DNA of 38,426 nucleotides. Source: Kineosporia sp. A_224. Lineage in GTDB: Bacteria; Actinomycetota; Actinomycetes; Actinomycetales; Kineosporiaceae. Shown in pieces: positions 5,201 to 38,324 of this stretch; positions within the stretch are counted from its first letter, which is position 1, and each line of letters opens with the position of its first letter. Where the stretch lies: NCBI RefSeq assembly GCF_002198655.1, contig NZ_MWLN01000166.1, positions 1 through 38,426 on the forward strand, given 5' to 3'. The translations under genes were made by a program, and so were the position numbers. Under the pieces are notes generated by a model. That model ran no database searches and was not told the DNA's origin. It worked only from the letters and a program-made list of their open reading frames with translations.

Positions 5201-8200
5201 TCAGGACAGCGCGACGCTCGTGCGCGCCGACGCGTGGGTGTCGCCGAGCCGGGAGACCGTGACCCCCGGGACCTGGTTCGGCGACGAGAGGTTCGTCGTG
5301 TCCCGGTTGCCGAGCATCCGGTTGTTGTTGAGCCCCCAGCACCACAGGGTCGCGTCGGTGCGCCGGGCGCACGAGAACTCGTAGGCCGCGTTCACCTCGG
5401 CCCACGTCGTCGCGCTGCCGACCTGGGTCGGGACGCTCCGGTTCGTCGACGTGCCGTCGCCGAGCTGGCCGTTGGTGCCCAGGCCCCAGCACCACAGGGT
5501 GCCGGCCGACTGCACCCCGCAGGCGTGCGCCCGCCCGACCGTCACGCCGGACCAGGTCGCCGTGCCGATCTGCACGGGTGAGTTCCGCTGGGTCGTCGTC
5601 CCGTCACCGAGCCGGCCGCTGCCGTTGTCCCCCCAGCAGAAGAGCTTGCCCGCCGCGGCGCCGGTCGCCGGGATCCCGCAGGTCGAGTAGTAGCCGGCGC
5701 TGACCGTCGACCAGGCCGTCGCCCCGGCCACGCTGACCTGCACGGGGGTGGTGCGGTCCGTCGTCGTGCCGTCCCCGACGGTGCCGAGCCCGTTGTCGCC
5801 CCAGCACCACAGGGTGCCGGCGGTCTTGATGCCGCACGTGTGCGTCTCCCCGACGCTCACCGAGGTCCACGAGCCGGCCGGCCCCGCCGTAGGCGTCGTG
5901 ATCGTCCCCGTCGCACCCGAGACCCCCGTCTGGTCGAACGTCGTCGACCCCCAGCACCACAGCGAGTCGTCGGTGCGGACGGCGCACACCGTGTAGGTGC
6001 CCGCGGAGATCGACCGCCACGTCGACGCCGCACCGGCCTGGACCGGCGCGTACCGCGTCGTCGTCGTGCCGTCCCCGGGCTGGCCGTACGTGCCATGGCC
6101 CCAGCACCACAACGTCCCGTCGCTGCGGACCCCGCAGCCGCCGTGGTAGCCGGTGCCCCCGGCCGTGAAGCCGGTCGCCGGGGCGAGCAGCGGCGTGGGT
6201 GCGCCCGCGGAGTTGTTGTAGTACGTGCCGAGCTGGGCGGAACCGTCGTCGCCGAAGCACCAGACGGCCTGGTCGCTGCGCAGGCCGCACGTCGCGCTGA
6301 AGCCGCCGCTCACGGAGCGCCAGGCGGTCGAGGCACCGGCCTGCACGGGCGACAGGCGCTGGGTCGTCGTCCCGTCGCCGAGCTGGCCGGACCCGTTGTA
6401 GCCCCAGCAGTACAGGGCGCCCGTGGTCCGCAACGCGCACGTGTGGTTCTGCCAGGTCATGAGGGCCGGCGCGGACGACGACGCCGGGCTCAGCGCGGCC
6501 GTGGCCCAGGTGGCCGCGCTCGTGCTCTCCCGCACGGGCGTCGTCCGGTCGGTCGTCGTCCCGTCACCGAGGTTGCCGTACCCGTTGTAGCCCCAGCAGT
6601 AGAGCGCGCCGGCGGTCGTCACGCCGCACGCGTAGTGGTCGCCCACGGAGACGGTCGACCACGACAGGGCGCCGGAGACGACGGCGGGCGTCGTGGAGTC
6701 CGCGGTGCCGCCGTTGCCCAGCGCACCGTAGAGGCCGTTGCCCCAGCACCGCATCGCGGCGTCCGAGGCGCGCACGGCACACGTCGAGTCGTAGCCGGCC
6801 GAGACGGTCGAGTACGTCGTGCCGGCCGTGACCTGGACCGGGCTGCTCAGGTTCGAGGTCCCTCCGTTGCCGAGCCGGCCGCTGCCGCCGCTGCCCCAGC
6901 ACCACAGGGTCGAGTCGGTCTTGCGGGCGCAGACGTGGTTCTGGCCGACGCTCACCTGCGCCCACGTCGTGACCCCGGTGGCGGGCACCGCGTTCGGGGT
7001 GTCGCGCGAGGTCGTCGTCCCGTCGCCCATCTCGCCGGCGCCGCCGTAGCCCCAGCACCACAGGCTCTGGTCGGTCTTGATGCCGCACGTCGTGTTCTCG
7101 CCCGCGTCGACGGACAGCCAGGTGCCGCCGCCGGAGACGCCGGTGGCCTCCCAGCGCTGGTTCGAGTCGCCGACGCCGAGGCTGCCGAAGGAGTTCGGGC
7201 CCCAGCAGGACAGCGCCCCCGCGGTGGTGACGGCGCAGCCGTGGTTGTCGCCCTCGGTCATGTCCTGCCAGGTCTCCGCGCCGGGCATCCGCACGGCGGT
7301 CGAGGTCGTCGAGTTCTGCATGATCACGCCGGTGCGGCCGAGGTCGCCGTCGCCCCAGGCGTACAGGTACGACGTCACCGTCGCGCCGGCCGAGGCCGCC
7401 GACGCGGGCCCGGTGCCGACGCTGTTCGTCGCCGTCACGGTGAACGTGTACGTCCCGGCGGCGAGGCCGCTGAAGGTGCAGGACGTCGTCGCCGAGGAGC
7501 AGGTCGCGCCGCCCGGGCTCGCGGTGACGGTGTACCCGCTGACGGCCGCGCCGCCGTCCCAGGACGGCGCGCTCCAGGACACCGTCGCGCCACCGAAACC
7601 CCCTGTCGCAGTGGGGGTCCCGGGCGCGGACGGGGTCAGCAGCGAGCCCCACTTGCGGGCCAGGTACTCCTCGACGACGCGGCGCTGCGCGGCGGTCGCC
7701 GTCGTGTTCGTGACGATGATCTCGGCCGTGCTGCCCCACCACCGGGAGTACTGGGTCGTGTCGCCGCCGGTGCCGACCCACAGGTGGTGCGTACCGGTGG
7801 TGAACGCGCCGCTCGCGGTCGCCGCGGCGCCGCCGCGCGACCACACGGACATCGACGTCCCGGACGCGAACTCGGCGGCGACGACCGCGGTCGCCTGGGA
7901 ACCGGGCCAGGCGGTCGTGAACGCCTGCGGGGTGTAGAAGGCGTCGACCCCGACGGCGGCCCACGAGGTGATCCGGCGCTGGGTGCCGGCGGTCGTGCCG
8001 CCCCAGGAGAGCATCGCGATCCCGTTCATCGCGACCGCGGGGTTGACCGCCGCGGCGGTGAACACCGTGCTCGTCGCCGTCCCGGTCGGGACGAGGGAGA
8101 CGTCCCCGGCGAGGTAGTCGGCGCTGCCGTCGAAGGCCGGCACCGAGCGGCCGTTGACGGTCGTCAGCGCGGGCTGGGAGCCGGCTGTCGCCTGCGTGAC

Positions 8201-11146
8201 GTGGTTGCCGCTGGCCGACCTGTCCTTCCAGCAGCCGACGGCGGTCGTCGCGGTCGCGCCGGTGCAGGCCGAGGAGGCGAGCAGGGTCGAGGCGTCTGCG
8301 GCGTCGAGCCACAGCTTCACGGCGGACGACGTGAGGACGGTCGCCGGGTAGGTGACCAGAGCGCCTGCGGCCGTCGCGGCGGCGCCGGTGCCCGCGACGT
8401 TCGCGGCGGCGACCGACACCGTGTACGAGGCGCCGTCCGTGAGCCCGGTGATGCTGCACGGCGACGAGGCGCAGGAGGTCGTCACGGTGGGGAGGGTGCT
8501 GTCCGACGGGGTCGCGGTCACGGTGTGGCCGGTGACGGCCGACCCGCCGTTCCACCCCGGGGCGGTCCAGGCGACGGACGCCGCGCCGCTCGTCGTCGTC
8601 GATGCGGTGGCCGTGACGCCGGTCGGGGCGTCCGGGGTGATCGCGACGCCCCACTTGCGGGCGAGGTACTCGCGGACGGTGCGGCGTTCGGCGGCGGTGA
8701 GCGCGGTCTTGAAGACGACGACCTCGCGGAAGGAGCCGCTGCCACGGCGCGCCACGAGGTCGTAGTCGTCGGCACCGACGGTCAGCACGACGCTCGCCGC
8801 CGACCGGGTCGTCGTGCTCGACACCGTGCCGCTCACCACGGAGTCGACGGCGACGTCGAGGGTCTGGCTCGACGTGCCGCCGGAGATCTGGCCGTCCCAG
8901 ACGTGCGGCCCGGTGAGGGCGGTCGACGGGCTGACGATGTCGGTGTTCGTCGTCTGCTGGTTGAAGCCGCCGGCGTCGATGCCGAAGAAGCTGGTGCCCG
9001 TCGAGCCGATGTGGGGGTGCAGGATCCAGCCGTTCGCGGCGCGGCCACCGGTGAGCCACCCGTAGGTGTTGAACGTCGACGCCGATGACGAGGCGACCGA
9101 GAACGCGGTGACCCCCGGCCCGGTCGGGACGCCGGCCGCGGTCTGGTAGTAGCCGTTGCCGGAGAACGAGACCAGCCCGGTCGCCGGGGTGTACGTGCCG
9201 GCCATCGCCGTCGTCGACTGGACGGCGTCCCGGCCGCCGCCGGTCTTGTCGGCCCAGCGCTTGAGGACGTTCGACGTCGACGCGCACGACGTCGCGGTGT
9301 CGCACGACTCGGAGCTGCCCTCGAGGACGCCGTCGCCGTCCACGTCGACACCGTCGAGCCACAGCACGGCGTTGCTGCTCGCGAGGAGCGCCGGCCGCGG
9401 GACGACGGTGACGGCGGACGACGCCGGTCCGGCACCCACGGCGTTGTTGCCCGCCACGGTGACCGAGTAGGTGGCCCCGTTCGTCAGGCCGGTCAGCGTG
9501 CACGGCGACGACGCGCACGGCAGCGTCACAGTCGGCAGCGTCCCGTCGGCGGGGACGGCGGTGACCGTGTACGACGTGATGGCCGAGCCGCCGTCGTACG
9601 GTGCCGTCCACGACACGCTCGTCTGCGCGTCGCCCGCGACCGCCGCGACCGCGGTCGGCTGCCCCGGGGTGATCGCCACGGCCCACTTGCGGGACAGGTA
9701 GTCCTCCACGGCGCGACGCTGGGCCGTCGTGAGCGTGCCCTGGACGACGACGACCTCGGGAATCGGGCCGAGCCAGTACTCGATGCCGGTGAGCTGGGCT
9801 CCGACGAGGGCCTGCGTCGTCCCCGTCGTGTTCGCCGCCGACACGGTCGAACCGGCGACACCGTTCCAGGAACCGGTGTAGGCGCTCGACGTCCAGACGT
9901 CCGAGAGGATGCCTGTCGTACCGGTGACGAGCGAGCCACCGGCTGAGGCCGTGCCGCTCCACGTCACCGCTCCGACGCCGGTCGAGTTCAGGGCCTTCTG
10001 GTACGAGCGGGTCTGGGCGGCACTGCCCGTGCCCCAGGACAGGGCTGTACGCCAGCCCGACGACGCAGGAGACGCCTCGGTGGTTCGCAGGGCGATGAAC
10101 GTCGAGGACGGCGTCGTGCCGTTCGGCAGCGCGGCCGGTGCCAGAGGCATCCAGGTGGTCGACCCGTTGAACGTCGGGACGCTGCGGGACGACACCGTCG
10201 ACAGCGACGGCTGGTTGAGGGCGGTGGGCTGGGCGGCGTTGTTCGCACCGGTGCTCTTGTCCTTCCAGCAGCCGACGCTCGTCGTCGCGGTCGCGCCGGT
10301 GCACCCGGACGAGGCGAGGATCGTCGAGGAGTCCGCGCCGTCCAGCCACAGCTTGAGCGCCGACGGCGTCATGACCGCCGAGGGGTACGGGACGGCCGTC
10401 CCGGTCGCGGCCGGTCCGGTGCCGACGTTCGACGTCGCGGTCACGGAGACGGTGTAGGTGAGGCCGTTCGTCAGCGACGACCACGAGCACGAGGTGGTCG
10501 GCACCGTCGCGGTGCACGTCGCCGATCCCGACCCCGGTGCCGGGGAGATCGTGGCCGTGTACGAGGCGACCGTCCCGCCGTTGCCCGCCGGTGCCGTCCA
10601 CGACGCCTGCACCGCGCCGTCCGAGGGGGTGAGCGTCAGCGCGCCGGGCGCGTCCGGGTACCCGTTGCACGCCGACGCCGCGGCGGTCGAGGTCGTCGAC
10701 ACCCAGCTGTTCAGCCGGGCCTTGACCCGGGGCGTCACCGCCGTCACCGGGACCGTGACGGACGCCGACGTGCCGGAGACCCCGGTCGCTACGGTCGACG
10801 TCCCGTCCGTCACGTCGTACGTCAGTCCCGACGGCAGCCCCGAGGCCGGCGTCCAGGACACCAGGCAGGTCGTGGCGGCCGTCCGGGAGGCGGTGACCGC
10901 CGTCGGGACGTAGGAGGTGAGCTGGCCCGCGGTGTACACGGCGGGCGGTCCGGCGGTGGTCGCGGAGAACACCGCGCCGATGACGCCGATGACGAGGGCG
11001 ACAGCCGCCACGCCGAGCGCCGCGACCCCGGCCCGGCCGAGCCGCTCGCGCAGGGACCGGTCGGAGGCTCCGCGGTGCCGGGCAGCCCGCGGTCGCGGCC
11101 CGCGGCACGCCGAGGACCGCGACCCGCGTCCCGCGGTCGCGCCCAT
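5201..11146 (-). CDS. Giant secreted FN3 / LamG-like / RCC1-repeat protein
   Basis: 1981 residues. The N-terminus is basic (1-39), then a hydrophobic segment (about 40-60) running into [15 protein letters not shown], which resembles SipW-dependent export signals of actinobacterial surface proteins. Next come five FN3-like modules alternating with three LamG-like modules; the LamG copies begin LWLDGAD/LWLDGVD/LWLDAAD and each ends in a version of RRxVEEYLxRKWG, a tail often seen in such modules. The C-terminal third holds 14 RCC1-type repeats of about 50 residues (xCWGxxxxGxLGDGTTTxRxTP), predicted to form one or two seven-bladed propellers. No LPXTG or other anchor is seen at the C-terminus. 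Likely an adhesion or display protein; its ligand is unknown. It lies 101 bases downstream of another secreted-protein gene on the same strand. The ATG has no strong ribosome binding site. Confidence 0.85.
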
Positions 11147-11247: not shown

Positions 11248-12507
11248 TCACGACGTGGCGATCTCCGCGTGCCGGTAGCGGTGTGCGGTGTTGTCCGACG
11301 CGATCGCGACGATCCCGTCGCCGTCGACGGGGTCCTTCGTCGTCGACACGTCGTTGACGACCGCACCCGCGGCGCTCATGAGGACGGTCCCGCGGCCCGC
11401 TGTCCAGGCGAGCGTGGACGCCGAGGCGTCCTTGCGGTAGACCGTGCCCCCGGCGACCGGTGACGTGGTGAGCACGTGCACCCGGCCGTTGACGAAGTCC
11501 ACCACGATCTGGGGGCGGGTGGCCTTGTCGGCGATGGTGTGCGAGGTCGAGACCGTCCACCGCCCGGCGGCGTCCCGGCGCAGCACCTGGATGAGCGGCG
11601 CCGTGGCCGGGGACGCGGGGTCGTCGTCCAGGGAGGTCTTCACCGCCGCGAACACCCGGTCGTCGTCGAAGGTGCCCTTCAGGCTGATGTGGTCGTCGGC
11701 GACCCCGGCCCCGGACAGCACCGTCTGGACGGTCCAGCGGGTGTCCGGCGTCCCGTCGTCGTGGACGGCGAACCGCACCGCGCTGCTCTGCTGGTCCGAC
11801 CACATGATCCCGACCCGGCCGCGGAACCGGGTGATCGCCGAGATGTCGTCGGAGGAGACCGTGGCGTCCGGGACCGGCAGCACCGTCGCGGGTGTCCAGT
11901 CCCCGCTGCCCGGTGACACCGTCCGGGTGACCATGACCCGCTTGCCCTGCGTGAACGTGACCCAGAGCGTCCCGGTGGAGTCCCGGGTGAGGGACGCCGA
12001 CTCGGTCCCGCCGGTGGCGAGCACCCGGGCCGCACCGGGCAGCCGGAGCCAGACGTTGCCGACCCCGATGTACTGGAACCGCTCGTAGCGGATCTCGCCG
12101 GTCGCCGTCCTGCTCACGACGTGCGCCATGTTCCCCAGTCCCAGGACGTCCGCGGTGCTGTCCGGCCGGGACGCCGCCGCCGCGTCGGCTGCCGCCGCTG
12201 CCCCGGCGTCCACGAGGACCCCGGTGTCGCGCCAGGTGTGGTCGGGCATGAGCTGATGGATCGTCGGGCGGCCCCGGCCGGCCGGGACCATGACCGCCCA
12301 CCACCTGTTGCCCGCCCGCCACACCTTGCTCTGCGGCTTGTCCGCGGTCGGCGAGGTGAGGGTCGCGGGGAAGGCCTGGTCCGCGTACTGGGTCGAGGTC
12401 ACCGCCGCGGACGCGGGGACCGCGGTGAGGAACAGGGACGCGGCGGTCCCGGCCACCGCCAGTGCGGTCGTGGAGAGGATCCGTGCGGTCGGGCGGGCTG
12501 GCGTCAC
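11248..12507 (-). CDS. Secreted protein, probable beta-propeller (sialidase-like fold), function unknown
   Basis: 419 residues with a clear Sec signal peptide: basic Arg-containing start, hydrophobic core at about 10-30, and an AxA-type site at PASA-AVTS near residue 34. The mature part has recurring strands with aromatic and Asp motifs (WRAGNRWWAVMV, TLWVTFTQGK, RGRVGIMWSDQ, RVFAAVKTS), like exported sialidase-like or six-bladed propeller proteins, but no catalytic signature is recognised. The GTG start follows GGGAG by about eight bases. It lies just downstream of the adnB-like gene and upstream of the giant RCC1 protein on the same strand, with its own probable -10 at 12556-12561. The two may act together at the cell surface, which is inference from adjacency. 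Confidence 0.7.
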   Translation of the reverse strand: MTPARPTARILSTTALAVAGTAASLFLTAVPASAAVTSTQYADQAFPATLTSPTADKPQSKVWRAGNRWWAVMVPAGRGRPTIHQLMPDHTWRDTGVLVDAGAAAAADAAAASRPDSTADVLGLGNMAHVVSRTATGEIRYERFQYIGVGNVWLRLPGAARVLATGGTESASLTRDSTGTLWVTFTQGKRVMVTRTVSPGSGDWTPATVLPVPDATVSSDDISAITRFRGRVGIMWSDQQSSAVRFAVHDDGTPDTRWTVQTVLSGAGVADDHISLKGTFDDDRVFAAVKTSLDDDPASPATAPLIQVLRRDAAGRWTVSTSHTIADKATRPQIVVDFVNGRVHVLTTSPVAGGTVYRKDASASTLAWTAGRGTVLMSAAGAVVNDVSTTKDPVDGDGIVAIASDNTAHRYRHAEIATS

Positions 12508-27080: not shown

Positions 27081-28256
27081 TCAGGGTGCCGCGAGCGGGT
27101 CGTCGCCGGTGACGCCCGCGAGCGGGACGAGCTTGAGGTTGCTCATGCCCGCTCCGGTGTTGCGTTCGTCGTGGACGACGAGCAGCCCGCCGGCGAACGC
27201 GCCGCCGAAGTCGCGGGCGTCGGCGGCGACGCCGTCCGTCGTCGTGACCTTGTCGACCCCGCCGGCCGCGGCGACGGTGACGCTGCGGACGTACGCGTTG
27301 TCGCCGCCGCGCCCGTAGACGGCGAGCGTCGAGTCGCCCTGGCTCGACACGAGCAGGTGGCCGCGGCCGTCCGGCCCGGTCGTGAGCGCCAGCCCTTCGA
27401 CGTCCGCGACGAGGTGCCCGTCGCCGACCCGGCCGACCGCGACCCGGTCGTCGCCGTCCCCGGGCTCGGCGCCGTAGCGCCAGACCGCGACATCCTCCTC
27501 GCCGACGTAGAGCAGGCCGCGCTCGTCGTCCGCGACGCAGCCCTCGCTCTGGCTGCCGACGTCGAGGGTGCGCACCCGCCGGGCGTCGACGCCGTCCGCC
27601 GTCACCGCGAGCGCGTACTGCTCGAGGCCGCCGCCGTCCCGCTGGGTGACGAAGGCGGAGAGGGCGCCGGAGGCGCTGCGGTAGAGGCAGAACCCGTAGT
27701 TGGGCGCCAGCGTCGCCGGCCCGGTGCCGGGCAGCGGCGTGAGCCGGCGGGTGCCGGGGTCCAGCGTCCAGAAGGCCAGCGTGTCGTCGGAGCGGTCGTT
27801 CGCCCCGACGAGGACGACGTCGCGCCCGCCGACGCGGACGCCGTCGCGCAGGTCGACGTTGCCGATCTGCCCGCCCGGCAGGAACTGCAGCAGCGCCCCC
27901 GAGAGGTCGTACACCGCGATGCCGCCCGGCTCCGCCTTGCTGTCCGCGACGACGACGCTGCGCGCCGGGTCCCTCGCGTCGAACCAGATCGCGCTGTCGT
28001 CGGCGATGTCGCCGCTGCCCTCGGGGAAGGGCTCGGTCTCGGCCGCCGGGAAGACCGTCCGGACGCCGGACGACAGCCCCCCGGTCGCGCGCGGGGGGCG
28101 GTCCGTCCCGCCGGGCCCGGCGTCGTTGCCGGAGGACCCGCCGCCCCGCAGGACGACGAACCCGGCAGCAGCAGCCACCACGGCCACCGCGACCACGACG
28201 GTCGCCACCGCTGCCCTGCTCGCGCCCTGCTCGTGCCTTGCACTCTCGTGCCGCAT
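27081..28256 (-). CDS. Beta-propeller phytase (3-phytase), membrane-anchored form
   Basis: 391 residues. A single N-terminal hydrophobic segment (about 14-37) without a clear cleavage site suggests anchoring or a signal. The catalytic propeller has the BPP motifs IADDSAIWFD and IGNVDLRDGV, then PNYGFCLYR, VGSQSEGCVADDERGLLYVGEEDVAVW, and LVADVEGLALT...LLVSSQGDSTLAVYGR. BPP enzymes release phosphate from calcium-phytate outside the cell. ATG at 28256 follows GGAGGGGG by nine bases; TACGTT at 28285-28290 could be the -10. It is the closer of two paralogues in tandem and lacks the C-terminal extra domain of the other. Confidence 0.85.
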   Translation of the reverse strand: MRHESARHEQGASRAAVATVVVAVAVVAAAAGFVVLRGGGSSGNDAGPGGTDRPPRATGGLSSGVRTVFPAAETEPFPEGSGDIADDSAIWFDARDPARSVVVADSKAEPGGIAVYDLSGALLQFLPGGQIGNVDLRDGVRVGGRDVVLVGANDRSDDTLAFWTLDPGTRRLTPLPGTGPATLAPNYGFCLYRSASGALSAFVTQRDGGGLEQYALAVTADGVDARRVRTLDVGSQSEGCVADDERGLLYVGEEDVAVWRYGAEPGDGDDRVAVGRVGDGHLVADVEGLALTTGPDGRGHLLVSSQGDSTLAVYGRGGDNAYVRSVTVAAAGGVDKVTTTDGVAADARDFGGAFAGGLLVVHDERNTGAGMSNLKLVPLAGVTGDDPLAAP

Positions 28257-28284
28257 GACCACGTGCCCCCTCCGACGTCCGCGG

Positions 28285-28290
28285 AACGTA
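28285..28290 (-). promoter_or_regulatory. Possible -10 (TACGTT) of the short phytase gene
   Basis: TACGTT on the minus strand in the 62-base gap between the two phytase genes, upstream of GGAGGGGG. It suggests independent transcription, though read-through from the upstream paralogue is equally possible. Confidence 0.35.
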
Positions 28291-28318
28291 CCAGGGCCCA
28301 CGGACCGCCGGCCCGGCG

Positions 28319-29875
28319 TCAGCCCGTCGTGTACGTGACGACGAGCCGTGCGCCGTTCGCCGTCTCCCGGCTCGACAGGTACCCGAGCGAGCAGCCCGGC
28401 GCGCCCTTGACGGCGAGGGTGAACGCCGCGCCCTTCTGCACGGCCGCCACCGGCAGCGCGACCGGGACCCGCACCTTGGCGCCGAGGCTCGCGGAGGTGC
28501 CGAGCACCACCGGGTCCACCGCCGGCGCCGTCGAGGCCTTGACCGTCTTCTCGACCCACGTGTTGCCCGCGGCGTGCACCTCGTAGCGGCACGTCTTCGT
28601 CGACGGCGAGTACGGCTCGAGCACCGCGGAGGTGACGGTCGCGGTCGCCGGCACCGCCGTCGCGTCGAAGCGCAGCAGGGTCGTCAGCGTCGTCGCCGAG
28701 ACCCGCAGCGTCGTCGAGCCGCCGTGGGTCGAGGCGTCGAGGTAGGTGTCCGCGACGACCGGCAGCGTCACCGAGACCGAGGTGCCGGGCGGCGGGGGCG
28801 GCGGGTCGGCGGCGGTGACGGCGTCGAGCGGGACGTACTTGAGGTTGCTCATCGTGCCGCCGGTGTTCGACGCGTCGTGGACGACGAGCAGGCCGCCGGT
28901 GAACGCGCCACCGAGGTCGCCCGCGTACGCGGCGACCCCGTCCGTCGACGAGACCTTGTCCACGGTGCCGCTCGCACCGACGGTGACGCTGCGGACGTAG
29001 GCGTTGTCCCCGCCGCGCTCGTAGACGGCGACCGTCGAGTCGCCCTGGCTGGAGACGACGAGATGCCCCGCGCCGCCCGGGCCGTAGGTGAGCGTGAGGC
29101 CCTCGATGTCCGCCACGAGCCGGCCCGCCCCGACGGTGTCGACGGCGACCCGGGCGGCGCCGGCACCGGGCTCCGCGCCGTAGCGCCAGAGGGCGACGTC
29201 CTCCTCGCCGACGTAGAGCAGGCCGCGCTCGTCGTCCGCGACGCAGCCCTCGCTCTGGCTTCCGACGGCCAGGCTGCGGACGAGCCGGGCGTCGACGGCA
29301 CCGGCGGTCTCGAAGAGCTCGTACTGCTCGAGCAGCCCGCCGCCGCTCTGGGTGACGAACGCGTAGGACGTGCCGGTCACCGGGCTGCGGTAGAGGCAGA
29401 AGCCATAGTTCGGCGTGAGCGTGGTGATCGCGCGCGCCGACACCGGGGTCAGCGCGTGGGTCACCCGGTCGAGCGTCCAGAACATGATCGTGTTCGTCGT
29501 CCGGTTGTTCGCCCCGACGAGCGCGACGGACCCGCCGCCGAGCAGGACGCCGTCCCGGACGTCGATGTTGCCGACCTGGCCGACCGGCAGGTACTGCAGG
29601 AGCCGGCCCGCGAGGTCGTACGTCGCGACGCCGCCCGAGCCCGCCTTGTTGTCGGCGAGGACGACGCTGTTCGCCGGGTCCGACGCGTCGACCCAGATCG
29701 CGCTGTCGTCGGCGATGTCGCCGCTGCCGGACGGGAAGACCTGGGTCTCCGCGACCGGCAGCACGGTTCGGGCCGTCGCCGCCGCGCTGCCGCCCGCGGC
29801 ACCGACCGCAACCACCCCGGCCGTCGCCGCGACCGCGACCACCGTCCCCAGCACCGTGCCCCGTGTGAGCCGCAT
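28319..29875 (-). CDS. Beta-propeller phytase with C-terminal DNRLRE-like domain, secreted
   Basis: 518 residues. Sec signal with core at about 8-30 ending near GSAAATA. The propeller (about 36-370) repeats all BPP motifs of its neighbour (IADDSAIWVD, VGNIDVRDGV, PNYGFCLYR, EGCVADDERG, EGLTLTYGPG). A Pro-rich linker (PPPPPPGT) joins it to a module of about 150 residues starting SVTLPVVADTYLDASTHGGS, typical of DNRLRE/CBM96-like domains that bind sugars or cell wall. It would release phosphate from phytate while tethered to a polymer. ATG at 29875 with a GGAAGAG upstream. TACGGT (29950-29955, minus) may be the -10. Strong similarity to the next gene implies tandem duplication. Confidence 0.88.
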   Translation of the reverse strand: MRLTRGTVLGTVVAVAATAGVVAVGAAGGSAAATARTVLPVAETQVFPSGSGDIADDSAIWVDASDPANSVVLADNKAGSGGVATYDLAGRLLQYLPVGQVGNIDVRDGVLLGGGSVALVGANNRTTNTIMFWTLDRVTHALTPVSARAITTLTPNYGFCLYRSPVTGTSYAFVTQSGGGLLEQYELFETAGAVDARLVRSLAVGSQSEGCVADDERGLLYVGEEDVALWRYGAEPGAGAARVAVDTVGAGRLVADIEGLTLTYGPGGAGHLVVSSQGDSTVAVYERGGDNAYVRSVTVGASGTVDKVSSTDGVAAYAGDLGGAFTGGLLVVHDASNTGGTMSNLKYVPLDAVTAADPPPPPPGTSVSVTLPVVADTYLDASTHGGSTTLRVSATTLTTLLRFDATAVPATATVTSAVLEPYSPSTKTCRYEVHAAGNTWVEKTVKASTAPAVDPVVLGTSASLGAKVRVPVALPVAAVQKGAAFTLAVKGAPGCSLGYLSSRETANGARLVVTYTTG

Positions 29876-29949
29876 GCCCCGCTCTTCCCGTGTCCGGCCG
29901 CTGCCCCGTGCCCCCGTCCGGCCGTGCGGCACATCGCCAGATCCCGCGG

Positions 29950-29955
29950 ACCGTA
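29950..29955 (-). promoter_or_regulatory. Possible -10 (TACGGT) of the long phytase gene
   Basis: TACGGT on the minus strand about 75 bases before the ATG. No convincing -35 or Pho-type direct repeats were found beside it. Confidence 0.35.
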
Positions 29956-29989
29956 GCAGCAAGATCGTCGGGCCGGGGCCGGGCACGAC

Positions 29990-35670: not shown

Positions 35671-35916
35671 GTGTCCAGCACCCCAGAGGGACCTGACGGG
35701 GCGCAGGCGCCCACCGTCGTCGTCACCGTGGCCGCCGACGGCCCCTACCTGCTCAGCGGGTCGACGGAGATCCGCAACGCCGAGGGCGAGGTCGTCAAGA
35801 CCGTCACCAAGACGGCGTTGTGCCGCTGCGGCCACAGCGAGAACAAGCCGTTCTGCGACGGCAGCCACCGCCGCGTCGGGTTCACCGACCCGGGCCCGGC
35901 GGCGCCGCAGGCCTGA
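35671..35916 (+). CDS. CDGSH iron-sulfur domain protein
   Basis: 81 residues with one CDGSH motif: CRCGHSENKPFCDGSHRR (Cys51, Cys53, Cys62, His66), the 3Cys-1His ligand set of a [2Fe-2S] cluster. Bacterial single-domain members are soluble redox or cluster-transfer proteins. The preceding segment GPYLLSGSTEIRNAEGEVV is the conserved strand pair of the family. GTG start with GGAGG five bases upstream. A 12-bp hairpin follows the gene. There is no evident partner next to it. Confidence 0.92.
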   Translation: MSSTPEGPDGAQAPTVVVTVAADGPYLLSGSTEIRNAEGEVVKTVTKTALCRCGHSENKPFCDGSHRRVGFTDPGPAAPQA

Positions 35917-35942
35917 CGGCCGGCGCGAGGAGGAACTTTCCG

Positions 35943-35971
35943 CGGGGGCGGTGCAACGCGCACCGTCCCCG
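35943..35971 (+). terminator. Hairpin downstream of the CDGSH gene
   Basis: Stem 35943-35954 / 35960-35971, 12 pairs with one G-U, loop of five. It lies 26 bases past the stop. It overlaps a possible ECF-type promoter of the next gene. Confidence 0.5.
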
Positions 35972-35978
35972 TGGCGTC
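35952..35978 (+). promoter_or_regulatory. Possible ECF-sigma promoter of the beta-propeller gene
   Basis: TGCAAC (35952-35957), 17 bases, CGTC (35975-35978), about 49 bases before the GTG. The pair resembles ECF-type promoters of high-GC actinobacteria. No sigma factor gene is in the window. Confidence 0.35.
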
Positions 35979-36026
35979 CTCGGAGCACCCCGGCCGCACT
36001 ACCGGGGCCGACACGAGGAGGTCCCT

Positions 36027-38324
36027 GTGCAGCACACCGACAACCCGGCCCGCGGGTCCCGGCGCCGCTTCACCGCGGCCGGCGTGACGTTCGCCCTCGT
36101 CACCGGCGGGTTGTTCGCGGTGACCTTCGGCCAGACCCTCGCGACGTACGCCGCGGCCGACGGCCGGATCGTCGACTACGACCCCGTCCCGGCCCCCGGC
36201 GACCCCGGGCGGCCCGGCACGCTCGGCGGCGTCCAGAACGCGGCCTACGCGAGCTTCACCGACTGCTCGGCCCTGCTCGACTACTACCGCACGCACGCGC
36301 GGCCGATCGTCGGGCCGTACGGCCTGCCCGGCAACCAGTTCGGCGTCATGTTCGACACCGTCGGCGGGGTCGCCACCACGGCCCGGGCCGCGGGCGGGGC
36401 CCCGGTGCCCGCCGCCGCACCGAACGCGGCGGCCGAGGGGACGACGTCCGCGACCGGCACGAACGTCCAGGTCGCGGGCGTCGACGAGGCCGATGTCGCC
36501 AAGCGCGTCGGCGACCTCCTCTACTCCGCCGCCCCGGGCACCGTGGACTGGCAGAAGGACCCGAACGGCTCGTCGCTCGCCGCACTCACCGTGGCCCGGA
36601 CCCGCGACGGCCGCAGCGAGGTGCTCGGCCGTCTGAAGCTCGACGGCTGGACGGCGCAGAGCATGCTCGTCGACGGGACGACGGTGCTCCTCGTCGGCGG
36701 CGCCCCCTGGAAGGACGGCGACGGCGTCGCCCCGGGCCCGGCCCGGATCATGCCCGGCTACGGGTTCGCGAACCGGACGCGGGTCGTCCAGGTGGACGTC
36801 AGCGACCCCGCGTCGCCGCGCGTCGTCCGCTCGCTCGTCGTCGACGGCTCCTCGGTCGGCACCCGGCTCGTCGACGGCGTCGCCCGGATCACCGTGAGCG
36901 GTGCGACGAACCGGCTCAAGTTCGTCCAGCCGCTCTACCCGGACCAAGGCGGCGTGCCGCCGGTCAAGGACAGCGCCCCGGACGCCCCCGTCGTCGCGCC
37001 GCCGTACGACGAGGGGGCGGTGAGGAAGGCCGAGAAGAAGGCCACCGCCGCGAACCGGCGGGTCGTCGCGCGGTCGACGATCGACGCCTGGCTGCCGACG
37101 TACGAGCTCACCGAGGGCACCGGCGCGCGGCCGACGTCCACGGGGAGCCTGCTGTCGTGCCAGGACGTGTCCGCCCCGAAGACGTTCTCCGGCCTCGACA
37201 CGATGTCGATGCTCACGTTCGACCTGCGCGACGTGGCCGGGATCTCGCGCTGGGACTCCGCGGGCGTCGTCGCCTCCGGCGCCCAGCTCTACGCGACGGC
37301 CGATCGCACCTACGTCGCGACGACGCCGTGGCAGGACTGGGCGGTGCTGAGCCCGGCCAAGCAGCTCGTGGCGATGCGCGCCCAGCGCAGCCAGATCCAC
37401 CTCTTCGACACCACGGGCGGCGCCTCGCCCGTGTACGTCGGCTCCGGCGAGGTGCCGGGCTTCCTGCTCAACCAGTTCTCCATGGACGAGAACGCCGGCT
37501 ACCTGCGGGTCGCCTCGACGACGATGCCCGACTGGTGGGGCGGCGACCGGGAGCGGACGCCGAGCACCAGCCAGGTCACGGTGCTGCGCGTCGGCGACAG
37601 CGGCCTGACGAAGACCGGCTCGGTCGGCGGGCTGGGGAAGACCGAGACGATCCGCGCCGTCCGCTTCCTCGGTGACGTCGGCTACGTCGTGACGTACCGG
37701 CAGACCGACCCGCTCTACACGATCGACCTGTCCGACCCGACCGCGCCGCGGGTGGCCGGCGAGCTGAAGATCCTCGGCTACTCCGCCTACCTGCACCCGG
37801 TCGGCGACGGGCTCGTGCTGGGCGTCGGCCAGGACGCGACCGCCCAGGGCCGCACGACCGGGCTCCAGATGGCCCTGTTCGACGTCTCCGACCCGGCCCA
37901 GCCGCGGCGGGTCGACACGGTGAACATGCCCGGCGCCTGGTCGGACGTCGAGGGCGACCACCACGCCTTCACGTTCGCCGACGGGCTCGCGCTCGTGCCG
38001 TACACCCGGTGGATCGACCCGGGTACCCCGGTCGAGCCGTCCGACGGCACGGTCGGCGCCGTGCGCCCGGGCGAGCAGGGCTTCGACGCCGGCGTGGTCG
38101 CCGTCCGGATGACCGGCACGGGCGCCGGCAGCCGCTTCACCGACCCGGTCGTCCTGCGGCCGGTCGGCTCCGGCCCGCAGCCGGTCGACCAGTCGACCGG
38201 CGAGACCGGCCCGACGCCGCTGCGGACGTTCGTCGGCGACGGCTCGGTGTGGACCGTGACCACGGGCGGCATCGCCGCCCACGACGCGCAGACCCTGACC
38301 CGCACCGACTTCACGAAGTTCTGA
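36027..38324 (+). CDS. Secreted beta-propeller domain protein (Beta_propel family)
   Basis: 765 residues. N-terminal basic stretch (RGSRRR) and hydrophobic helix (about 16-38) form a signal or anchor. The family hallmark NVQVAGVDEADVAKRVGDLLYS (about 150) opens the propeller, followed by repeated VDVSDPASPRVV, IDLSDPTAPRVAGEL and FDVSDPAQPRRVDTV blade motifs and LGYSAYLHPVGDGLVLGVGQD. The family is secreted or membrane-tethered and of unknown function; it is found beside ECF sigma or envelope-stress genes in other actinobacteria. GTG start with GAGGAGG five bases upstream. Ends 15 bases before a perfect 23-bp inverted repeat. Confidence 0.85.
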   Translation: MQHTDNPARGSRRRFTAAGVTFALVTGGLFAVTFGQTLATYAAADGRIVDYDPVPAPGDPGRPGTLGGVQNAAYASFTDCSALLDYYRTHARPIVGPYGLPGNQFGVMFDTVGGVATTARAAGGAPVPAAAPNAAAEGTTSATGTNVQVAGVDEADVAKRVGDLLYSAAPGTVDWQKDPNGSSLAALTVARTRDGRSEVLGRLKLDGWTAQSMLVDGTTVLLVGGAPWKDGDGVAPGPARIMPGYGFANRTRVVQVDVSDPASPRVVRSLVVDGSSVGTRLVDGVARITVSGATNRLKFVQPLYPDQGGVPPVKDSAPDAPVVAPPYDEGAVRKAEKKATAANRRVVARSTIDAWLPTYELTEGTGARPTSTGSLLSCQDVSAPKTFSGLDTMSMLTFDLRDVAGISRWDSAGVVASGAQLYATADRTYVATTPWQDWAVLSPAKQLVAMRAQRSQIHLFDTTGGASPVYVGSGEVPGFLLNQFSMDENAGYLRVASTTMPDWWGGDRERTPSTSQVTVLRVGDSGLTKTGSVGGLGKTETIRAVRFLGDVGYVVTYRQTDPLYTIDLSDPTAPRVAGELKILGYSAYLHPVGDGLVLGVGQDATAQGRTTGLQMALFDVSDPAQPRRVDTVNMPGAWSDVEGDHHAFTFADGLALVPYTRWIDPGTPVEPSDGTVGAVRPGEQGFDAGVVAVRMTGTGAGSRFTDPVVLRPVGSGPQPVDQSTGETGPTPLRTFVGDGSVWTVTTGGIAAHDAQTLTRTDFTKF

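Follow-up and report, generated by a model that had tools for sequence, protein, structure and literature searches.

Proteins that join FN3 domains, LamG-like modules and RCC1-type repeats in one chain raise the question of which of their parts recognize a partner and which form the frame. An earlier note on a 38,426-nucleotide stretch of the genome of Kineosporia sp. A_224 (contig NZ_MWLN01000166.1; the whole stretch is hereafter called the window) had described such a chain and had read it as a stalk carrying a large propeller head. We consider it fairly probable that the protein is an exported, adhesin-like scaffold of the Kineosporia lineage, in which a constant frame carries LamG-like cassettes that are replaced by recombination.

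Domain architecture and genomic context

The chain of 1981 residues corresponds to a single real reading frame with an ATG start, located on the minus strand (Table 1); the earlier note had given its coordinates correctly, without the strand. GC at third positions amounts to 97%, and the long plus-strand frames that overlap the gene (e.g., 5840-9088) are, in our view, a side effect that very high GC commonly has. The host genome has 7.2 Mb in 242 contigs. On one side of the gene lie what we take, from their sequences, to be UvrD-like genes, and on the other NudC- and TerC-like ones. Full-length relatives occupy the equivalent neighbourhood in two genomes of the same genus, Kineosporia sp. R_H_3 (G2, locus L043) and a groundwater MAG (G1, locus L044), and all 43 cysteines of the window protein are kept in both. 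In another genus of Kineosporiaceae (G5), a homologue truncated by the contig end (L082) contains three LamG-like modules, FN3, 13 full RCC1 blades and two half-blades, its RCC1 part being 44% identical. Immediately upstream of the giant gene, a minus-strand frame (11248-12507) encodes a secreted-looking protein of 419 aa. Its homologue adjoins the orthologue in R_H_3; as it is absent beside the orthologue in the groundwater MAG (L044) and has no Pfam match, it was rejected as a partner of the giant gene.

Table 1. Features of the giant gene in the window, with the evidence for each.
Feature	Position	Strand	Basis
Whole reading frame, 1981 aa + stop	5201..11146	-	GC3 97%; orthologues L043, L044
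Hydrophobic N-terminal segment, aa 39-60 (export signal or anchor)	10967..11032	-	sequence; hydropathy screen
aa 57-76 (20 residues), resembles cleavage region of same-genome SipW-cognate proteins	10919..10978	-	not significant on shuffling; no NCBIfam match
Conserved domain aa 77-161, FN3-like by eye only	10664..10918	-	93% identity in both congeners; no Pfam match
FN3-1, aa 162-253	10388..10663	-	Pfam fn3
LamG-like module 1	9677..10390	-	43-44% aa identity to both congeners
FN3-2, aa 491-583	9398..9676	-	Pfam fn3
LamG-like module 2	8645..9400	-	92% to G2, 75% to G1
FN3-3, aa 835-931, apparently exchanged along with module 3	8354..8644	-	identity and silent sites
LamG-like module 3, groups with module 3 of C150 paralogue	7643..8353	-	tree; AU p 3e-53 against orthology
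FN3-4, aa 1169-1252	7391..7642	-	Pfam fn3
Probable first RCC1-type propeller, ~aa 1257-1626	6269..7378	-	low-confidence model residues 7-376 match RPGR, Z 33.6
Probable second RCC1-type propeller, ~aa 1627-1981, boundary inferred	5204..6268	-	14 repeats; repeats elsewhere in sevens

The order of FN3, LamG-like and RCC1 parts described in the earlier note was borne out: three LamG-like modules lie between four fn3 stretches and are followed by 14 RCC1 repeats. Pfam fn3 matches four stretches (E 1.1e-47; 160.6 bits over the whole protein, cut-off 25). The RCC1 part is matched above cut-off by RCC1 (PF00415; E 2.1e-64, 10 stretches, 214 bits against 21.7), RCC1_2 (E 8.5e-61, 13 stretches) and WD40_RLD (PF25390; E 2e-99, 334 bits against 150). 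The AlphaFold model (pLDDT 62 overall) has good FN3 domains (Z ~14 to FN3) and a poor middle.

For LamG, the domain search that confirmed RCC1 and FN3 gave a divided answer. No Pfam LamG model matches the window protein, nor any of its three modules scanned alone (0/3). Among relatives, 9 of the 44 homologous modules have a Laminin_G_3 match at E<=0.1, the best one at 6.2e-7, and when ten modules were scanned singly, one (from L078) scored above the curated cut-off. We call the window modules LamG-like, a membership that is supported through the relatives and not through the modules themselves. A PDB sequence search with the 44-module profile returned 0 matches at E<=1. In the AlphaFold model of the LamG-like part (residues 101-300), ten-residue blocks have pLDDT values of 22-63; because that model is poor, a jelly-roll fold of the modules is a candidate assignment. 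Assignment of a LamG fold from structure matches was rejected for the same reason, the VIA rows being FN3-type matches.

The architecture is indeed rare, as had been proposed. The full FN3-LamG-RCC1 build was found only in four genomes of Kineosporiaceae (those of the window, G1, G2 and G5), and the family's own model finds a LamG module in 0 of 61 other sampled RCC1 reading frames. Taken alone, RCC1 proteins are nothing unusual in the class, 72 of 394 genomes having a match at E<=1e-10. When plasmids were searched with the whole protein, the best 8 of 67 records align only with the RCC1 part. A phage search with the RCC1 part alone gave 11 records, all below 60% identity, and five pattern matches to the LamG/FN3 part in viral contigs were not confirmed. 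On one viral contig (L076:4038-8757), three consecutive genes encode one seven-bladed RCC1-type propeller each; on another (L073:2-2830), a single chain contains two propellers with a collagen-like GATGQTG repeat between them. These viral proteins are perhaps tail-fibre parts.

The RCC1 part and the N-terminus

The RCC1 part has 14 WG/FG sites, its repeats running from aa 1253 to the end of the chain. One blade is split: its second half opens the RCC1 part, and its first half closes it at the C-terminal end. A cysteine pair is present in 13 of the 14 blades; the spacing is C(X9-10)C[WF]G in 12 of them and longer in the remaining one, the twelfth blade. In the window protein, both congeners and G5 (also with 13 pairs), the 13 continuous hairpins, repeat 8 included, keep the pair, and the hairpin split between the two ends is Cys-free. 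The propellers are probably disulfide-pinned. With a dN/dS of 0.16-0.18, the RCC1 part is under purifying selection.

One propeller or two was a matter that the earlier note had left to structure prediction. The AlphaFold model of the RCC1 part is of low confidence (pLDDT 54.7, most uncertain around the seam) and contains a seven-bladed ring: model residues 7-376 superpose on the seven-bladed RPGR (Z 33.6, 3.3 Å over 328 residues) and residues 39-390 on UVR8 (Z 34.3). No linker marks the seam between the putative propellers. In the 61 other RCC1 reading frames (a tally that excludes the frames of five loci, namely the window, L082 and three C80-type loci, and in which 8 or 15 matches that include a terminal half are scored as 7 or 14 blades), 45 have seven blades and 8 have 14. 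The 8 others have 3, 5, 6, 9, 11, 12, 13, and 13 blades, some being cut or having a weak repeat missed. Three ORFs of one genome (G381; L116, L118, L128; 1267-1309 aa) show seven RCC1 repeats, an insert of ~354 aa and seven more; the same genome has RCC1 matches in frames of similar length at several other places.

For two rings made by 14 blades there is a precedent, the WRAP domain, which belongs to a WD40-type lineage. In Nostoc Npun_R6612, 14 WRAP blades of one chain are described as forming two separate seven-bladed propellers; this domain differs from the window protein in being part of a STAND ATPase and in having nearly identical blades (PMC9218822). The occurrence of repeats in sevens elsewhere, the ORFs with an insert between two sets of seven and the seven-bladed ring of the low-confidence model disfavour a single 14-bladed ring, for which the intact Cys hairpin at repeat 8 is the remaining argument. 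Together with the WRAP precedent, they make two rings the best reading. Hence, the 14 repeats counted in the earlier note stand, and its large propeller head is sharpened to what are most likely two seven-bladed propellers.

BLIP-II, a single small propeller not known to carry FN3 or LamG, is among the structural matches of the RCC1 model (Z 23). It is described as a secreted seven-bladed RCC1-type propeller of the actinobacterial genus Streptomyces that binds a protein (PMC9218822, PMC4617170). The same literature describes the plant receptor kinase CRINKLY4/ACR4, whose extracellular RCC1-type propeller has seven repeats with a C(X10)CWG cysteine pair in each (PMC4617170). The window protein resembles CRINKLY4, as far as described there, by a Cys pair per blade and by structure (Z 22-23), and differs by its 14 repeats, mostly with X9, by its bacterial origin and by having neither kinase nor TNFR domain. 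Our results point to a bacterial extracellular RCC1 double propeller that, with a Cys pair in 13 of 14 blades, would use a CRINKLY4-like solution. Another beta-propeller protein is encoded in the window at 35820-38324 (plus strand; PF09826, E 6e-110), with an extracytoplasmic-looking N-terminus.

The hydrophobic N-terminal segment and the 13 Cys pairs of the RCC1 blades are hints for export, and the protein is likely to be exported. The earlier note had compared its N-terminus with those of SipW-dependent proteins and had suggested looking for a SipW-like peptidase in the genome. Such a peptidase is present. At two loci, on contigs C118 and C113 and thus on other contigs than the giant gene, small cognate-like proteins are encoded next to a gene for a SipW-like peptidase. 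The C118 peptidase reaches 65 bits with TIGR02228 (cut-off 51.85) and 40 bits with the SipW model NF046067 (E 2.9e-10, cut-off 190); that of C113 stays under the TIGR02228 cut-off. On C113 (L039:3300-5259), two tandem small SipW-cognate-like proteins are followed by the peptidase gene, which has a masked stretch. Nearly all relatives have a SipW-like peptidase: of 38, 36 give a match at E<=0.001 and 24 one above the cut-off. Its presence in the genome is therefore weak evidence, and co-occurrence was set aside as uninformative.

SipW-dependent proteins of the TasA/camelysin type have ~200 aa. The window protein resembles the SipW-cognates of its own genome in having a hydrophobic N-terminal segment and, after it, the motif F-[ST]...[AS]-G-x-[LV]; the post-hydrophobic segment (38 residues in the C171 paralogue of G2) looks like that of the C118 and C113 loci. 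Unlike the TasA/camelysin type, it has no model match, is unlinked to a SipW gene and is 1981 aa long. In a screen designed post hoc, after the sequences were seen, 106 of 406 genes had a hydrophobic stretch somewhere in their first 150 residues, and in 7 of these 106 the motif came after it (five of the giant-gene family, one SipW-cognate, one by chance). NCBIfam gave no relevant match to the SipW-like N-terminus of the window protein. When the residues after the hydrophobic segment were aligned locally with three SipW-cognate proteins, 3783, 1605, and 2114 of 5000 shuffles scored as high, and four ordinary secreted proteins used as controls were no different. With a resemblance confined to the motif, silent models, non-significant shuffles and peptidase genes that adjoin their own substrates, SipW dependence of the giant protein is a lead only.

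The surface location proposed in the earlier note gained no support from the C-terminus: inspection by eye found no LPXTG motif and no C-terminal membrane segment or anchor, the chain ending with the last RCC1 half-blade. The protein would sit on the surface or be released. Elsewhere in the window, two adjoining minus-strand frames (27081-28592 and 28319-29986) encode phytase-family proteins that are probably exported (PF02333, E 8e-67 and 1e-77), the second with CBM96; because the frames overlap as called, one of the two starts is too early.

A constant frame and divergent LamG-like modules

The host genome contains two further giants of like build without RCC1, on contigs C150 (six LamG modules) and C172 (four), as well as one pilin-like gene with modules of the same family (contig C235). 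No LamG cassettes were found in this genome outside the giant and pilin-like genes at E<=0.001. Compared with the congeners, most of the frame of the window protein has 82-97% identity, against 42-46% for LamG1 and LamG3 and 62-72% for FN3-3. The comparison covered three congeneric genomes (two in the case of C172 and of the pilin-like gene), and the module counts, which are those of the same genus and exclude G5, are as follows: identity falls below 60% in 7 of 32 LamG comparisons (42-52%) and in 0 of 56 comparisons of N-terminal, FN3 and C-terminal parts. The lowest values outside LamG, 62 and 71%, both concern FN3-3 of the RCC1 gene. In the window gene, the LamG comparisons under 60% are those of LamG1 and LamG3, against both congeners.

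The gene is a mosaic, with most of the FN3 frame and the propellers constant and the LamG-like modules as the variable, exchanged parts. This is what the picture of a stalk with a propeller head misses. According to that picture, FN3 and LamG would mainly be a passive spacer and the RCC1 propellers would bind. RCC1 folds are known as binding platforms, with BLIP-II, UVR8 and RPGR complexes among the structural matches, and the propellers are placed at the C-terminus. However, the propeller part, 91-94% identical to the congeners, is among the most constant stretches, the LamG modules change most, and the C150 and C172 paralogues do without an RCC1 part. We find such a division of roles rather doubtful, even if it is compatible with module exchange. 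Because the propellers keep still and the LamG modules change, we read the former as a constant domain, presumably with an invariant partner, and the latter as recognition cassettes that would bind something and whose swapping would alter the target.

In a tree of 44 modules, LamG3 of the window gene groups with module 3 of the C150 family (support 100/100, 75-76% aa identity), whereas LamG3 of G1 and G2 groups with module 4 of that family (100/100, 63-67%). AU tests, which used 30 of the 44 modules and clades named after the tree was seen, reject orthology of LamG3 (p 3e-53) and of C172 module 3 (p 0.003). The swapped modules differ in ancestry, most clearly module 3. Such a pattern might also arise by differential loss: an ancestor with more LamG modules per gene would have undergone lineage-specific deletions via recombination of FN3 repeats, with nothing imported. 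Indeed, modules 3 and 4 of the C150 family adjoin, and the window gene would have kept a 3-like module and G1 and G2 a 4-like one. However, every orthologous set keeps its number of slots (3, 6, and 4) although the contents change, which deletion does not predict; replacement in place is therefore favoured. Moreover, module 1 of C172 (L035:7031-7744, L078:4804-5517) is alike at 158 of 161 fourfold sites (98%) between the window species and G2, against 75% in FN3, and has a dS of 0.029 against 0.10-0.26 in the other modules measured. Judged from these silent sites, it is a recent cassette exchange between two species. For these reasons, differential loss appears unlikely to us.

Silent sites also bear on the idea that the LamG modules simply evolve fast in place, under diversifying selection. 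At fourfold sites, 50% identity corresponds to random. Between the window gene and G2, identity is 76% in the RCC1 part, 73% in the N-terminal part with FN3-0 and 83% in LamG2, against 55% in LamG1, 54% in FN3-3 and 58% in LamG3. Between the window gene and G1, it is 80% in RCC1, against 66% in LamG1, 50% in FN3-3, 58% in LamG3, 56% in FN3-2 and 68% in LamG2. Between G2 and G1, the values are 78% in RCC1 and 84% in LamG3, against 64% in LamG1 and 62% in LamG2. LamG1, FN3-3 and LamG3 taken together differ from RCC1 by Fisher's test (p 2e-7 for G2, 1e-7 for G1), although the LamG1 signal is less clear with G1 than with G2. As FN3-2 is also low with G1, the exchange is not confined to LamG. In the paralogues, C150 module 1 of G2 has 51-52% aa identity and 53-54% at fourfold sites, against 78% in FN3 (p 4e-6 and 9e-6); C150 module 5 of G2 has 61-63% at fourfold sites despite 87-89% aa identity; and C172 module 3 has 42% aa identity and 51% at fourfold sites, against 75%. 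The pilin-like gene shows no such silent-site effect.

Because their fourfold sites approach random, the divergent modules differ in ancestry and not only in amino acid selection. LamG domains are binding modules, which would suit fast evolution, and C172 module 1 has a dN/dS of 0.77. The AU test does not reject single ancestry for two of the four slots, RCC1-gene module 1 (p 0.086) and C150 module 1 (p 0.116), so that the case for exchange of these two rests on silent sites and identity. Against this stand the silent sites themselves, the six other LamG comparisons measured (dN/dS 0.16-0.34) and LamG3 of the window gene, which is nearer to a paralogue than to its orthologues. Fast evolution in place is in our opinion very improbable. 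Finally, an assembly chimaera, with repeats collapsed or cross-joined, could be imagined as all three genomes are drafts of 242-570 contigs and the modules are repetitive, and is hardly credible since the swapped modules have no near-identical match in the genome (at best 75% for LamG3 and 46% for LamG1 of the window gene), the reading frames are uninterrupted, three gene families show the same pattern and the G2 record is not labelled as a MAG.

Proposed cassette replacement and related systems

In the account of cassette replacement that we favor, the constant frame would be composed of the N-terminal export segment, the FN3 spacers and the C-terminal pair of seven-bladed RCC1-type propellers, and would offer three slots to LamG-like modules that probably bind glycans or proteins. 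Cassettes would be replaced in these slots by homologous recombination, slot 3 together with the preceding FN3. The donors would be relatives of the same-family paralogous giant genes, coming at least partly from other strains or species. Tentatively, a wider reading can be put forward, in which the giant exported proteins form an interspecies cassette system. With the FN3 frame fixed, LamG recognition modules might then move from one slot, gene or species to another, giving a binding set of the lineage's own (for attachment, kin or prey recognition, or escape from phages or predators), and one member would show a constant double propeller next to its variable modules.

The closest described case that we found is VARTIG of Thermococcales, a large multi-domain Ig-like protein in which one domain, the distal C-terminal Ig domain, varies by interspecies recombination and the rest is conserved; smaller genes for related modules recombine with the large one (PMC8416519). 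In the window protein, in contrast to VARTIG as described there, it is the internal LamG modules that vary and the C-terminal propellers that stay constant, and no LamG cassettes were found in the genome outside the giant and pilin-like genes at E<=0.001. Among the literature matches listed, none was recognisable as dealing with the giant-protein family or with actinobacterial LamG cassette exchange. If the replacement account is true, the family would be an actinobacterial counterpart of such module-swapping surface proteins, with natural swaps in hand. As the versions of this gene in the three species differ from one another mostly in their LamG cassettes, recognition by the LamG slots is directly testable on the same frame.

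Modules of this family also occur on contig C235. The pilin-like gene (L037:2909-4867, minus strand) has a GFTLLE-type N-terminus (N_methyl 19.3 bits, cut-off 21.2) followed through the chain by same-family LamG-like and FN3 modules. Its neighbour (L037:658-2313, minus strand) matches Laminin_G_3 with 56 bits and a ricin-type lectin model just under cut-off, and the pair may perhaps be lectin-bearing minor pilins.
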